From a bacterium (lineage in GTDB: Bacteria; Elusimicrobiota; Elusimicrobia; UBA1565; UBA9628): a stretch of 34,997 nucleotides of DNA. Every line of letters begins with the position of its first letter. Position 1 is the first letter of the stretch. A program made the translations under genes and the position numbers. A model generated the notes under the pieces. It ran no database searches. It was not told the origin of the DNA and was given only the letters and a program-made list of their open reading frames with translations. The stretch lies in the NCBI GenBank assembly GCA_021846045.1, contig JAJZCM010000019.1, positions 1-34,997 of the forward strand, in the 5' to 3' direction. Shown here piece by piece: positions 2,407 through 26,819 of the stretch.

Positions 2407-2497
2407 TAACCGCTCAGGTTCGTCATTCCGGCGAAAGCCGGAATCCAAAAGATCGCTACTCTGGACCCCGGCTTGCGCCGGGGTGACGTGAGTAGTT
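2407..2497 (-). repeat. Palindromic repeat family A, copy 1
   Basis: Its reverse complement matches 7323-7413 at 87 of 91 positions without gaps. It comprises two hairpins, GTCACCCCGGCGCAAGCCGGGGTCCAG and TTGGATTCCGGCTTTCGCCGGAATGAC. Confidence 0.93.
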
Positions 2498-6409: not shown

Positions 6410-7446
6410 ACGCCGGCAAAATAGCTCAAGCCTTAAAGGAACGCGCGCTTGAAATTGGAGCCGATCGTGTCGGAATTTCTCCCGCCGCGGCATTTCCAGA
6501 GGCGAAATCCTACCAGGAATGGGTCTCAAAATCTTACCACGGGTCCATGGCTTACATGGCGAAAAACCCGAAGACGCGCGCCGACATCCGGCTTTGGTGG
6601 CCACAGGCCCGCTCGGTTCTCATCTGCGCCTTTGATTATTCCGCCAACAAAAAAGCGCCTCTTCCCCAAGGCCATGGCCGCGTCGCGCGCTACGCGGGGG
6701 AAAGAGATTATCACCTCGTTTTAAGAGAAAAGATGGAAACGCTCTCTTTACAACTCAAAACGCTGGAGCCCTCCGCCGATTCAAAGGTCTTTGTCGACAC
6801 CAGCCCCATTCTTGAGAGGCTCTACGGGCATTTTGCGGGCCTTGGCTGGATCGGCAAGAACACGATGCTTTTGTCGGAAAAGGGCTCTTATTTTTTCCTG
6901 TCGGGAATGGCGATGAATCTCGAACTCCCGCCTGACGAGACTGAAACCAATCATTGCGGCAGTTGCCGAAGATGCCTGGAAGCCTGCCCGACCGGCGCTT
7001 TTCCCCAGGAACGAGTCATGGATGCCGGCAAGTGCATTTCTTATTGGACCATCGAACACAAGGGAGAAATTCCTCAAGAGAAACATTCAGGGATGGGGGA
7101 ATGGGTATTTGGATGCGACGTCTGCCAAGAAGTCTGTCCGTTTAACCGCTTTGCCTCTTTCGGACGCACATTTAAAACGCCGGGATACGAGAGCCTTCCG
7201 CTCAAGGAAATCACGCAATGGACAGACAGCGAATTTAAATCCCGTTTTTCAAAGACGGCTCTCGCCCGAACCAAACGCGCAGGCCTCCTAAGAAACGCCC
7301 GCATCGCCCTTAAAAACGCCGTAACTACTCACGTCACCCCGGCGCAAGCCGGGGTCCAGAGTAGCGATCTTCTGGATTCCGGCTTGCGCCGGAATGACGA
7401 ACTTGAGCAGTTACAAAACGCCGAGAAGCTCCCACCATGCGATTAA
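6406..7446 (+). CDS. queG: Epoxyqueuosine reductase QueG; start codon uncertain and non-canonical
   Basis: HGSMAYMAKNP.TRADIRLWWPQARSVL; GLGWIGKNTMLL; two ferredoxin clusters CGSCRRCLEACP and CDVCQEVCP. QueG-like N-terminus (IAQALKERALEIGADRVGIS) continues upstream of the ORF-track ATG at 6547. Confidence 0.92.
   Translation: MDAGKIAQALKERALEIGADRVGISPAAAFPEAKSYQEWVSKSYHGSMAYMAKNPKTRADIRLWWPQARSVLICAFDYSANKKAPLPQGHGRVARYAGERDYHLVLREKMETLSLQLKTLEPSADSKVFVDTSPILERLYGHFAGLGWIGKNTMLLSEKGSYFFLSGMAMNLELPPDETETNHCGSCRRCLEACPTGAFPQERVMDAGKCISYWTIEHKGEIPQEKHSGMGEWVFGCDVCQEVCPFNRFASFGRTFKTPGYESLPLKEITQWTDSEFKSRFSKTALARTKRAGLLRNARIALKNAVTTHVTPAQAGVQSSDLLDSGLRRNDELEQLQNAEKLPPCD
7323..7413 (+). repeat. 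Palindromic repeat family A, copy 2
   Basis: GTCACCCCGGCGCAAGCCGGGGTCCAG...CTGGATTCCGGCTTGCGCCGGAATGAC. It is an inverted copy of 2407-2497 and encodes the QueG C-terminal tail. Confidence 0.93.
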
Positions 7447-22854: not shown

Positions 22855-22877
22855 GAAATAGGGACTGTCCCTATTTC
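22855..22877. repeat. Palindrome family C (GAAATAGGGACTGTCCCTATTTC)
   Basis: 23-nt palindrome, symmetric except for the central base. It contains the stop codon of the nitroreductase gene. Confidence 0.85.
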
Positions 22878-23911
22878 CTGATTATTTTGCGGAGGCTGCG
22901 GGCGGAGGGCTCTTTGGCGGCATATCCCAAGCGAAAAAACATTAAAATTCTCTTTTCATTTTCAATAGAAAACGCTTCCTTGAGCATTTTTATCCCGTTG
23001 GTGAGGCATTCCCGCTGGGAGGGCGTAAATTGGGCGGGGTTATTCCAAAGCATATGAAACAAGGCAACCAGGGCGTATTCGGGCTGGAGGGAAAGGCCTA
23101 AGGATGTCATTTTTAGCCAAAGGCGTTCAAACAATTTCCCGCCATTAAGAATGGATTGCGGCGAATCATCCGGAACTTCGATGAGGCCCAAGGCGGAAGA
23201 CCCCATACATAATTGATAATCTCGAAAAGCCGCGAAACGGCTGAGACCAAAAAGATTAAGCGCCTTTGTCAGCCTCCAAGAGCTCAAGAATCTAAAGGCC
23301 GGCTCTTGAATTCCCAATTCCAGGGTTTTGATATAGAGTCCGTCGCGGGTTCTTTCAGCTTCCGCTTGATTCCAGCGGATACTCTGAAAAAGAGCTTGAT
23401 GGATGCCCTGATCTTCCATCATGACCTGAGAACCGTAAAAGGCGGCCTTGGCCGCGGATTTCTTAGCGGGAAGCCCATCCGCAAGAGAGAGCCGTCCAAA
23501 GCCTGAATTTTGGGCGGTTTGAATGAGTTCTTCTCGAATTTCAGGGGGCAGGTCCCTATGCAAATAATTTCGACGGTTGACCGAGCGCTTTTCAATAAAT
23601 GGAAAAAGCGGATGTGGCGTTTTCACCGAAGATTCGCGAAACTTTAGAGAGGCGATGGCCCCCCCCGCAGGGAATAAATCTTCCATCATTTCTAGCCCTA
23701 ATTCTTGAGCGGCAATCAACATGTTTTCCAAAACGGCGCCGTAGCCTGTGAGAGATGGACGATGATTTAAGTTGAATGGGTGGTTATGAAACGCCCCCAC
23801 GAGTTCCAGAGCGTCCTCTTTTAGAGAAAAACGCCAGTCCTGGAGATTGTCACCCGAGGGCGCCATCTGCCCGTAGCGGGCAATTTCTAGGAGCGTTTCC
23901 TTTGTGATCAT
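22871..23911 (-). CDS. Nitroreductase-fold protein (Rv1355c/MoeY C-terminal-domain-like)
   Basis: LLEIARYGQMAPSGDNLQDWRF; IEKRSVNRRNYLHRDLP; GYGAVLENMLIAAQELGLEM. The likely start (MITKET, 23911) overlaps the ThiF stop as ATGA. Confidence 0.75.
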   Translation of the reverse strand: MITKETLLEIARYGQMAPSGDNLQDWRFSLKEDALELVGAFHNHPFNLNHRPSLTGYGAVLENMLIAAQELGLEMMEDLFPAGGAIASLKFRESSVKTPHPLFPFIEKRSVNRRNYLHRDLPPEIREELIQTAQNSGFGRLSLADGLPAKKSAAKAAFYGSQVMMEDQGIHQALFQSIRWNQAEAERTRDGLYIKTLELGIQEPAFRFLSSWRLTKALNLFGLSRFAAFRDYQLCMGSSALGLIEVPDDSPQSILNGGKLFERLWLKMTSLGLSLQPEYALVALFHMLWNNPAQFTPSQRECLTNGIKMLKEAFSIENEKRILMFFRLGYAAKEPSARSLRKIIRK

Positions 23912-24774
23912 ATCTTGGCGGCGCGTTTGACGCGACGCAAGAGGATTTTCTGCTTGAGCTTTTGAATCGGATTTTTGCCGCCGAACCATAAATACCCTTT
24001 TTTATAGCGCTTGAGATAAGGATCGAATTGAAAGTAATAAGGCGCGGACAGGGGCGGGGTCCTTTTTAGAATCCAGTTGACGGCTTCAGTTGAGGCAAGG
24101 CCCGCGCAAAGGGCGCAGGCGGACGCCAAGGCCGGCCCTTTTCCGGCTTTGAGATCCACTTTGCCGAGATTGAGGTATTTGAGATGCAAAAGGGCCGGAG
24201 TAAGACCGACCGCAAAGGCGGCGATTTTTTCCTCATAACCCATGGAATCATTAATTCCGAAATATTCGTCAAAATTCATTCCGGTCGGTGAAAAATTAAG
24301 AAGCATGGCGCCAAAACCCAAGGGGCCGGAGGTGACGACCGGAATTTTCTTTTCCCAAGCCGTCATGAAGTAGAGGCGCCGCGCATCGATTTGAAAAAAA
24401 TCAATGCCGTCCAAGGCGACGTCGACCCCTTGAAGAAAGGAGTCGATATTTTGAGCGTTGACAAATTCTTTAAAGACCGTGACCTTGGCTTGGGGGTTGA
24501 TGGATTTTACTATTGCCGCGACAGTCTCGGCTTTGTTTTCTCCGAAAGTTTCAACCGAAGCGCCGTATTGACGGTTGATGTTGACGATTTCAAAAACATC
24601 CTCATCAGCGACATGAAAGTTTCCCACTCCCATGCGCGCCAAGGTCGCAAGATGAATGCCGCCCACTCCCCCGGCGCCGGCGACGGCAACCGTTGATTGG
24701 CGGAGAGCGTTTTGCTCCTGCTCGGTTAAAATACCGATGTTGCGAGAGAAAGCTTGGTCGTAGTCGTAACTCAT
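23908..24774 (-). CDS. ThiF/MoeB/HesA-family E1-like adenylyltransferase
   Basis: VAVAGAGGVGGIHLATLARMGVGNFHVADEDVFEIVNINRQYGAS; VDVALDGIDFFQIDARRL. ATG at 24774 (MSYDYDQAF) is preferred over TTG at 24795. Confidence 0.88.
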   Translation of the reverse strand: MSYDYDQAFSRNIGILTEQEQNALRQSTVAVAGAGGVGGIHLATLARMGVGNFHVADEDVFEIVNINRQYGASVETFGENKAETVAAIVKSINPQAKVTVFKEFVNAQNIDSFLQGVDVALDGIDFFQIDARRLYFMTAWEKKIPVVTSGPLGFGAMLLNFSPTGMNFDEYFGINDSMGYEEKIAAFAVGLTPALLHLKYLNLGKVDLKAGKGPALASACALCAGLASTEAVNWILKRTPPLSAPYYFQFDPYLKRYKKGYLWFGGKNPIQKLKQKILLRRVKRAAKI

Positions 24775-24818
24775 TGAATTTTTTGATATCTTCAATTATA
24801 GTACCATAACAATTACAT

Positions 24819-25211
24819 ATGTTCAAAAGAATAATGATCGCAGATGACAATTCGGTCGTCCATGATTTGATTTCCGCGCAGATGGCTATTTTAGGGCACG
24901 AGGTCGCGGGCGTCGAATCGGTCGGCAAGAAGGTCGTATCAACTTACCAGCGTCTTAAGCCGGACCTCTTGGTCTTAGACATCAGTTTCGAGGATACAGA
25001 CGGATTAAGCATATTGCGCGAACTTCGCAGTATCCATCCAGAGGCCAAGGTTTTAGTGCTCAGCGCCAATGAACAAAAAGAGACTCGCGCAATCGTGACC
25101 GCATTAGAAGCGGCCTTTCTTGCTAAGCCTTTTGCCGCAGTAGACCTTCAGGCGGCAGTTAAAAAAATATTCGACCAACCATCCGGTAACAGCACGAGGG
25201 CTTCCAAGTGA
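24819..25211 (+). CDS. CheY-like single-domain response regulator
   Basis: IMIADDN, DLLVLDISFEDTDG (phospho-acceptor Asp), VLVLSAN, AFLAKPF (Lys-Pro). Confidence 0.92.
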   Translation: MFKRIMIADDNSVVHDLISAQMAILGHEVAGVESVGKKVVSTYQRLKPDLLVLDISFEDTDGLSILRELRSIHPEAKVLVLSANEQKETRAIVTALEAAFLAKPFAAVDLQAAVKKIFDQPSGNSTRASK

Positions 25212-26551
25212 GCGAATCATTGAGCCCTCAGGAGTTGGAAGTTCTAGGCAAGATATTCCGGGACGGGGCGCTTTTAAGCGGTCGGAAATTATCTAAGTTT
25301 GGCCAAGGGAAATGGAAAGTTTCTTTTTCAGGCATACGGACGGTTACCGGCGAAAAAATCTCAGAATTTTTTAAGCTGGACATTGGAATAAACATGGGCG
25401 CCTTTGTCGGCATTTCAGAGCCGCTTTTTTTTGAAATCGTGATGTTGTTTCCGGAATGGAGCTTGATTCCTTTGGAAAAAAGTATTGCCGAAGCAACTCA
25501 AACCAGCGCCAGCAATTCGGACATGAACCGCCCGATTTTTAGCGAAGTGGCCAATATTTTGGGGAACGGTATTTTGGGAGCCTTGGCGGATCATTGCGGA
25601 GAGGCCTTTATCTCCTTGGCTCCAAAACTTGCGCGCGGTACGAAGCAACAAATTATTTCAATGGCGACGCGTCGCATGCCGGAAAACGCCGAGGCTCTCT
25701 TGATCCATGCGGAATTTTTCTCGGACAGTCAAGCCTGCGCAGCGACGGTTCTGGTCTTGGCGGATGCGGCGGCTTTAAGAAAGATATTGCCGAACAATTC
25801 GTCACTCCGGCAATCCGTAAGCTGGAGTCCAGACCCGAGTGAAAGTCTGGATTCCGGCTTTCGCCGGAATGACGGCATTGAAAGGACGCCTTCTCCGAGC
25901 GCCGATTTTAAGGTTTTATGCGCACAAAGCCCTCAAGATTTAGAAGATGTTTTTCGGCTTCGCTACCAGGTTTATGTAGTTGAGCATGGGTTCGAAAATC
26001 CAGCGGATTATCCTGACAAGCTTGAGAAAGACCTCTATGACGACTCTTCCGTCCATTTCTTGGCTCGCGACAATCAAGGTCGCGCCATTGGAACCGCGCG
26101 ATTGGTTTTAAATTCAAATCATGGTTTCCCTATGGAAAAGGAATACGATATTACGAAAACTTTGGCGCAAATTGATAGGAAAAAAACCGGAGAATTTTCA
26201 CGTTTCGCCATTCCGCGAAATGTCCAGGGTGAAAGGGGCGATTCTTTCAATGAATCCGCACGCGCCGGACATAGTGAAATCGCGTTGGCTTTGCTTTTGG
26301 CGGTATTTCAGAAAAGCGAACAAGAGGGTTTGACCCACTGGTGCTCCGCTGTTGAGCGGGCCTTGTGGCTGGCGTTGCGTCGTGGCGGCGTTTATTGGCA
26401 TCAAATTGGGGAACCTAAAGACTATCACGGCATCCGCATTCCATGTTTGCTTCCCATCGAAGAGTGCGTCAATCTTCGGGTGTTTCCCTTTCCGAAGGAA
26501 GTCGAGGCCTTCTACGCCTCCCGAGCCAAGGGAATTTTCGACGATAAGTAG
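25208..26551 (+). CDS. CheC/CheX-like phosphatase domain fused to autoinducer-synthase (LuxI)-like / exosortase-associated acyltransferase domain
   Basis: N-terminal FSEVANILGNGILGALADHCGEAFISLAP contains E-x2-N-x22-P. C-terminal LEDVFRLRYQVYVVEHGFENP, VHFLARDNQGRAIGTARLVLNSNHGFPMEKEY, GEFSRFAIPR. Confidence 0.78.
   Translation: MSESLSPQELEVLGKIFRDGALLSGRKLSKFGQGKWKVSFSGIRTVTGEKISEFFKLDIGINMGAFVGISEPLFFEIVMLFPEWSLIPLEKSIAEATQTSASNSDMNRPIFSEVANILGNGILGALADHCGEAFISLAPKLARGTKQQIISMATRRMPENAEALLIHAEFFSDSQACAATVLVLADAAALRKILPNNSSLRQSVSWSPDPSESLDSGFRRNDGIERTPSPSADFKVLCAQSPQDLEDVFRLRYQVYVVEHGFENPADYPDKLEKDLYDDSSVHFLARDNQGRAIGTARLVLNSNHGFPMEKEYDITKTLAQIDRKKTGEFSRFAIPRNVQGERGDSFNESARAGHSEIALALLLAVFQKSEQEGLTHWCSAVERALWLALRRGGVYWHQIGEPKDYHGIRIPCLLPIEECVNLRVFPFPKEVEAFYASRAKGIFDDK
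25801..25874 (+). repeat. Palindromic repeat family A, copy 3, inside a coding sequence
   Basis: GTCACTCCGGCAATCCGTAAGCTGGAGTCCAGACCCGAGTGAAAGTCTGGATTCCGGCTTTCGCCGGAATGACGG; encodes in-frame SLRQSVSWSPDPSESLDSGFRRNDG. Confidence 0.9.
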
Positions 26552-26561
26552 AAACAAGCGG

Positions 26562-26575
26562 TTGATTTAAATCAA
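26562..26575. promoter_or_regulatory. Perfect FNR/CRP-superfamily-type box TTGATTTAAATCAA
   Basis: Exact TTGAT-N4-ATCAA palindrome in the intergenic region upstream of the small peptide gene. Confidence 0.6.
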
Positions 26576-26666
26576 TCCCAGGCCTTAACTTCTCTCATGG
26601 CGCGGCCGGCGGCGCTTGCAGTATCATAAAAGCATGAGAAAAGATAACCCAAGGGAGGGTCAAAAT

Positions 26667-26819
26667 ATGAAATCAATGCTTTTGTCGTTGGCGTTTGTGT
26701 CGGTAGGATTCTTGTTTGCGAAGGTTTCTATTGTCAGCCCCTGTTCGCCGGGACGCGTTTGCGTTCAGCCTCAAATCGTAAGCCCCTGCAGCCCGGGCCA
26801 TATTTGCATCAACGGCTAA
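26667..26819 (+). CDS. Small secreted peptide with tandem Cys repeat
   Basis: SD-like gggaggg then MKSMLLSLAFVSVGFLFAKVSIVSPCSPGRVCVQPQIVSPCSPGHICING: hydrophobic leader plus two IVSPCSPGxxC units. Confidence 0.6.
   Translation: MKSMLLSLAFVSVGFLFAKVSIVSPCSPGRVCVQPQIVSPCSPGHICING

Follow-up and report, generated by a model that had tools for sequence, protein, structure and literature searches.

In an uncultured bacterium of the phylum Elusimicrobiota, a cluster of four genes probably directs the synthesis of an N-acylated, and probably aromatic, amino acid product, the first step of which would be under phosphorylation control. The cluster lies in a stretch of 34,997 nucleotides (contig JAJZCM010000019.1 of assembly GCA_021846045.1), hereafter the window, and comprises two divergent arms separated by 44 bp. 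The minus-strand arm encodes a ThiF/E1-like protein and a nitroreductase-like flavin-dependent oxidase (FDO). The plus-strand arm encodes a CheY-type receiver and a product of 447 residues (25208-26551) combining an N-terminal CheC-like half with a C-terminal acyltransferase half. The genes overlap in both arms: the TGA codon of the ThiF gene (23908-23910) and the ATG of the FDO gene (23911) share the bases ATGA, and the TGA codon of cheY overlaps the GTG start of the 447-codon gene as GTGA (25208-25211). A first-pass annotation of this DNA had reported the coupling of the ThiF and nitroreductase genes, their divergence from cheY, and a CheC-acyltransferase fusion. The gene calls, overlaps, and layout were confirmed, and the two halves of the fusion were identified by family models for the acyltransferase and by a 20-sequence profile for CheC. 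The chemistry is of a known kind; the unusual part is regulatory, namely a CheC-fused synthase whose translation is coupled to that of a complete CheY.

The four genes form one unit. The same divergent order and the same flanking genes were found in three genomes of the same genus (G001, G002, and G003), with a lytic transglycosylase gene on one side and, where contigs reach, adenosine deaminase and carboxylase genes on the other. Linkage of the two arms in relatives, on which the first-pass annotation had staked its reading of the locus, was thus observed in all three congeners. In a fourth genome of the genus, G004, the flanks are joined by an edge-to-edge jump with a 3-base TTT overlap and the whole cassette is missing. 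The lytic transglycosylase of G004 is 92% identical to those of G002 and G003, which are 77-81% identical to that of the window. Because G004 is closer to G002 and G003 than the latter are to the window, the simpler interpretation is that the cassette was lost from G004. In G021, which belongs to another genus of the same family, CheY, CheC, and the acyltransferase are encoded by three consecutive separate genes on the strand opposite to that of a ThiF gene, indicating that the fusion arose from a linked set. The ThiF gene of G021 is located at a contig end, any following FDO gene lying beyond the visible sequence. Among 341 genomes of the phylum, the acyltransferase was detected in seven, all of which were among the 11 genomes harboring this type of ThiF (Fisher p 3e-12, uncorrected for relatedness). 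FeeM, ThiF, and FDO are encoded by three overlapping genes in G007, and the three activities are carried by a single PRK14852-type polypeptide of 989 residues (FeeM, ThiF, and nitroreductase; WP_011787321.1) encoded by plasmid pDVUL01 of Nitratidesulfovibrio vulgaris DP4.

The C-terminal half of the fusion matched TIGR03694 (158.9 bits for a cut-off of 111.95), FeeM (42.3 bits), Autoind_synth (29.5 bits), each above its cut-off, and the solved structure of an acyl-homoserine lactone synthase (3P2F, E 2.1e-6). Residues R250, R252, D275, D278, R298, E329, and R332 were invariant in seven homologues; these positions presumably have the roles of the corresponding LuxI-type residues. The TIGR03694 score, above the cut-off, would also fit an enzyme associated with PEP-CTERM and exosortase that participates in envelope protein sorting, with ThiF and the nitroreductase as unrelated neighbors, and the fused Nitratidesulfovibrio protein is itself encoded among PEP-CTERM genes. 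This explanation is very improbable and largely disproved, since exosortase PF09721 was found in none of the 38 genomes searched (the window genome and 37 relatives); moreover, ThiF, FDO, and the acyltransferase remain associated in different genera and undergo fusion. As a separate observation, the second acyltransferase of G007, which belongs to the TIGR03694 branch (L097, 3729-5196), is encoded directly downstream from an OmpR-type response regulator, which is another link of this branch to phospho-signaling.

The ThiF-like protein matched PF00899 (160.7 bits), NF006077 (368.9 bits for a cut-off of 266), and PRK14851 (337 bits). Its best broad matches were to PRK14851 and PRK14852, two families of fused ThiF-nitroreductase proteins, over their ThiF portions. 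The GxGGVGG motif and residues R68, K81, and D125 were invariant in nine homologues. D125 aligned with the aspartate of the MoeB/ThiF family, which we take to be equivalent to D217 of TrzS, a fused enzyme of Mycobacterium tuberculosis. The FDO matched PF00881 (34.9 bits) and, over the FDO part, PRK14851 (161.8 bits) and the Rv1355c family (129.1 bits); its score against the Acg family NF047509 was 114 bits, under the cut-off of 199. A search of the PDB with the single FDO sequence returned no significant match, and a six-sequence profile retrieved Acg (2YMV, E 1.1e-11) as the best solved structure. The APSGDN motif and other positions were invariant among FDO homologues. The first-pass annotation had likened the ThiF and nitroreductase genes to the two halves of Rv1355c, which proved an apt pointer since Rv1355c is TrzS, a tryptazolone-forming fusion of ThiF and a flavin oxidase (PMC12856293). 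The match to the Rv1355c/TrzS family model (NF005901, PRK07877) amounted to 129 bits for the FDO and 63 bits for ThiF, below the cut-off of 476, and the window has two separate genes. The cluster thus contains a gene for a LuxI/FeeM-fold N-acyl amino acid synthase together with a ThiF-type cyclase that retains its ATP-site residues and is encoded next to an FDO, probably of the Acg/FDO-A nitroreductase subgroup, as do the Oxz, Tyz, and Trz clusters.

Since E1-like enzymes act on peptides elsewhere, and MccB and PaaA were among the solved-structure matches, we also considered modification of a ribosomally synthesized peptide by ThiF and the nitroreductase acting as an E1-like enzyme and a dehydrogenase. 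The putative precursor would be a conserved, secreted-looking product of 50-61 residues encoded next door on the plus strand (start at 26634 or about 26667/26668, end at 26819), which contains two IVSPCSPG-x-x-C repeats. This open reading frame (ORF) is conserved in all five congeners. They include G004, in which the conservation is equal despite the lack of ThiF, FDO, and acyltransferase genes, and the ORF lies outside the breakpoints of the empty site. These observations make the peptide hypothesis hardly credible. They also bear on the limits of the locus, which the first-pass annotation had extended to 26819: this interval does contain the four genes, and it additionally takes in the unrelated short ORF beyond 26551.

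In characterized systems, enzymes of these classes act in sequence. In M. tuberculosis, TyzA acylates tyrosine or phenylalanine, the ThiF protein TyzB cyclizes the product with ATP, and the FDO TyzC desaturates it with O2 (PMC10404671). TrzA and TrzS (Rv1356c and Rv1355c) perform analogous steps with tryptophan, cyclization occurring first in TrzS (PMC12856293). In Stieleria, Thalassotalea, and Massilia, 2,3-dehydrotyrosine products are associated with the same trio of genes (PMC12479983). By analogy with these relatives, the pathway of the window is most probably of the acyl-oxazolone/N-acyl-dehydrotyrosine kind represented by OxzAB, TyzACB, and TrzAS. The fused plasmid protein, the overlapping genes of G007, and the MMPL-containing clusters of G051 and G167 lend independent support to this assignment. 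The C-terminal domain of the fusion would join an acyl group, donated by acyl-acyl carrier protein or acyl-coenzyme A, to an amino acid. The ThiF-like protein would then adenylate the carboxylate with ATP, and attack by the amide oxygen would close a 5-oxazolone ring. Finally, the FDO would use O2 to abstract two hydrogens; the outcome would be an acyl-oxazolone or, once the ring has opened, an N-acyl dehydro amino acid. The window genome contains two COX1-type oxidase genes; O2 is therefore plausibly available to the FDO. The proposal of the first-pass annotation that the locus builds or tailors an acylated small molecule agrees with the enzyme classes, and the open-ended pathway that it envisaged can be narrowed to a known kind.

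An aromatic substrate is favored, on balance, by the presence in G021 of a second copy of the DAHP synthase gene directly upstream from the ThiF gene (L047, 1106-2197, minus strand). The product class is likely. The end product itself could be an N-acyl amino acid in its plain form or in the open-chain dehydro form, acting as a signal, a surfactant, or a membrane lipid, the oxazolone being at most a passing intermediate. We consider this outcome rather unlikely. It would agree with the trio of Stieleria, Thalassotalea, and Massilia, which yields N-acyl (dehydro)tyrosines with no oxazolones reported (PMC12479983), and with the ready opening of oxazolones by acid or alcohol (PMC12856293), although the Tyz and Trz enzymes make oxazolones both in vivo and in vitro under gentle quenching (PMC10404671, PMC12856293).

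The first protein of the plus-strand arm is a receiver matching Response_reg PF00072 over its full length (63.9 bits). Its phosphorylation site, read from the translation, is complete (D9, D10, D54, S82, and K103), and it is 69-75% identical to its counterparts in G001 to G003. The N-terminal half of the fusion had no Pfam match. A profile built from 20 CheC-like proteins matched the CheC structures 3QTA (E 8.9e-13) and 1XKR/2F9Z from Thermotoga maritima (E 8.1e-10). In this profile, N116 and P139 were invariant and E113 was present in at least 90% of the sequences. The motif E113-x2-N116-x22-P139 corresponds to the second of the two canonical active sites of CheC, the first being lost. The N-terminal half is thus assigned to the CheC family, with a predicted phosphatase activity. 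Most CheC-like genes of the phylum are immediately preceded by a CheY gene. CheY-CheC pairs (loci L060, L061, L062, and similar) adjoin genes for a short-chain dehydrogenase, a Mur ligase, or a MotA/ExbB protein and could represent a control module of general use in the phylum. The variety of these neighbors indicates that CheY-CheC is a two-gene module joined here to a synthase, and fused to it in the genus of the window. A chemotaxis role seems rather unlikely for the module, since CheW was not found in G001 to G003, which carry the module (G002 being only 80% complete), and is present in G004, which does not. The window genome itself has CheW on another contig.

Control of the first step could operate as follows. 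A kinase encoded elsewhere would phosphorylate CheY, phosphorylated CheY (CheY-P) would bind the CheC half and alter the activity or location of the synthase, and dephosphorylation of CheY by the CheC half would reset the system. That CheY-P gates the synthase is a proposal we advance tentatively. Alternatively, the enzymes may act as proposed without a gate, the CheC half serving only to keep CheY dephosphorylated or to tether the synthase to a membrane or polar complex in which CheY-P has another target. The association of CheY-CheC pairs with unrelated genes in the phylum and the separate CheC and synthase proteins of G021 speak for this alternative. We regard it as rather unlikely because fusion of CheC to the synthase in the window and three congeners, and conservation of the set, which G004 lacks in its entirety, fit a direct link better than a neutral fusion.

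The ThiF gene has a history of its own. The ThiF proteins of the window and G001 are 91% identical, in contrast to 47% identity between the window/G001 and G002/G003 types; the corresponding values are 72-80% for most neighboring proteins, and the other cassette proteins are 63-81% identical among the four genomes. In a phylogenetic tree, ThiF of the window and G001 grouped with those of G007 and G167 (98/98), apart from those of G002 and G003. In one lineage, ThiF has been exchanged in situ. In G002 and G003, an additional ORF of 147 codons precedes the ThiF gene (L043, 3289-3732, and L044, 9944-10387, plus strand). It resembles an ACT-type amino acid sensor, but the match is at best weak (14.8 bits, below the cut-off of 27). 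ThiF/FDO clusters of two other genomes include an MMPL exporter (G051, L046, 7646-12281; G167, L100, 2767-10704), as does the tyz locus of M. tuberculosis with mmpL9; the cluster of the window has none.

Several observations weigh against a phospho-gated pathway leading to an aromatic product. Direct comparison by BLAST detected no similarity between the acyltransferase of the window and the FeeM region of plasmid protein WP_011787321.1. Since the former belongs to the TIGR03694 branch, which is distinct from the characterized ones and has no detectable pairwise similarity to that region, its acyl acceptor could differ. Replacement of ThiF could have retuned the product, which may differ between congeners. 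The CheC half could be a phosphatase only, without any allosteric link to the synthase, and the cassette contains no histidine kinase gene. The AlphaFold2 model of the CheC-synthase fusion, computed with three sequences, was too poor for use (mean predicted local distance difference test score of 37.5).

The first-pass annotation had also suggested a control region shared by the two arms, based on a minus-strand TATAAT (24795-24800). Such sharing is plausible in just two genomes, those of the window and G001, because another ORF separates the arms in G002 and G003. The TATAAT letters are present. As a promoter, this element was rejected since it was not conserved among the congeners and the promoter scan was at chance level; it supports shared control only weakly. 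The scan of the intergenic region in this single genome revealed nothing above chance. Alignment of the four sequences by eye indicated better conservation of a plus-strand signal upstream from cheY, which reads TTGACA-17-CATAAT in G002, TTGACA-17-CATAGT in G003, and TTGATA-16-CATAAC in the window. Because the conserved -10 element is only a few bases from the ATG, the cheY message is likely to be leaderless.

The linker that joins the CheC domain to the acyltransferase domain contains a 74-bp palindrome resembling repetitive extragenic palindromic (REP) elements, which leaves the frame unbroken. Its core occurs in 84 copies with at most two mismatches in the 2.0-Mb draft genome (none in the control), and its predicted folding energy is -44.7 kcal/mol (z -5.6). 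The palindrome is specific to the species of the window, being absent from the equivalent linker of G001, G002, and G003. The insert either lengthens the linker or takes the place of some of its residues, and it identifies this segment as tolerant. The REP-like element occurs three times in the window (2421-2447, minus strand; 7373-7399 and 25848-25874, plus strand). Of 30 copies inspected by a mechanical ORF count, five are situated deep within open frames, in the manner of the palindromic elements of Rickettsia.

Table 1. Features of the cassette and the evidence for their assignment (window coordinates).
Feature	Position	Strand	Evidence
Nitroreductase-superfamily FDO (Acg/Rv3131-like), predicted desaturase of an N-acyl amino acid or its oxazolone	22871-23911	-	Matches to PF00881, NF047509, PRK14851, and Rv1355c family; profile match to Acg 2YMV
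ThiF/E1-like ATP-dependent cyclase (TyzB/OxzB/TrzS-type), predicted	23908-24774	-	Matches to PF00899, NF006077, and PRK14851; invariant ATP-site residues
Divergent intergenic region, sigma-70-like signal toward cheY	24775-24818	.	Alignment with three congeners
Stand-alone CheY-type receiver	24819-25211	+	Match to PF00072; phosphorylation-site residues
CheC-like CheY-P phosphatase domain (predicted), first 198 residues approximately	25208-25800	+	20-sequence profile
REP-like palindrome, in frame, CheC/acyltransferase linker	25801-25874	+	Copy count; folding energy
N-acyl amino acid synthase/LuxI-like acyltransferase domain (predicted), TIGR03694 branch	25895-26551	+	Matches to TIGR03694, FeeM, and Autoind_synth

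The physiological role of acyl-oxazolones is regarded as a major unresolved question by the discoverers of the M. tuberculosis pathways (PMC12856293). Through the fusion of its synthase to a domain predicted to bind CheY-P, the product is linked to a testable signal, and acyl-oxazolones might, speculatively, be phospho-gated signal or stress molecules. If gating is true, small-molecule synthesis joins the direct outputs of single-domain response regulators. The cassette extends this kind of pathway, with hints of aromatic supply, to an uncultured lineage and explains genes whose only labels, PEP-CTERM or 'molybdopterin', are misleading. A literature search, whose negative outcome does not prove absence, retrieved neither a CheC-acyltransferase fusion nor an N-acyl amino acid synthase under CheY control, and no CheY or CheC is described in the Tyz, Trz, and Stieleria reports consulted.

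Among known systems, TyzACB (Rv2336, Rv2337c, and Rv2338c), which produces C12:0-tyrazolone in M. tuberculosis (PMC10404671), shares with the window a synthase gene divergent from the genes for a ThiF cyclase and a stand-alone FDO. It differs by the lack of CheY and CheC, by an acyltransferase of another branch, by flanking cysteine genes and mmpL9, and by its proven product. TrzAS (Rv1356c/Rv1355c, tryptazolone; PMC12856293) has ThiF and FDO in the same order, and the Rv1355c family matches the full FDO part of the window (129 bits). In contrast to the window, the two activities are fused, cyclic di-GMP genes rather than CheY and CheC are next door, and the match of the window ThiF to the Rv1355c model is weak (63 bits, against 337 for PRK14851). 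The plasmid protein WP_011787321.1 brings together the same three activities, its ThiF and FDO parts being 49% and 26% identical to the proteins of the window, but as a single polypeptide with a FeeM-type synthase in PEP-CTERM surroundings. OxzAB of Pseudoalteromonas rubra, compared here through its descriptions in PMC10404671 and PMC12856293, likewise associates an acyltransferase with ThiF and FDO activities and yields an acyl-oxazolone; unlike the window, OxzB is fused, and those descriptions mention no phospho-signaling genes. For regulation, the N-acyltyrosine synthases Nas343 and Nas354 are fused to a PilZ domain (PMC4897644), which is C-terminal and binds cyclic di-GMP, in contrast to the N-terminal CheC of the window, and no ThiF/FDO operon is reported for them. 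The CheC proteins of T. maritima (1XKR/2F9Z) and 3QTA share with the fusion the profile match and the second-position E-x2-N-x22-P motif, whereas the CheC half of the window has lost the first site, is fused to an enzyme, and is encoded outside a chemotaxis operon.

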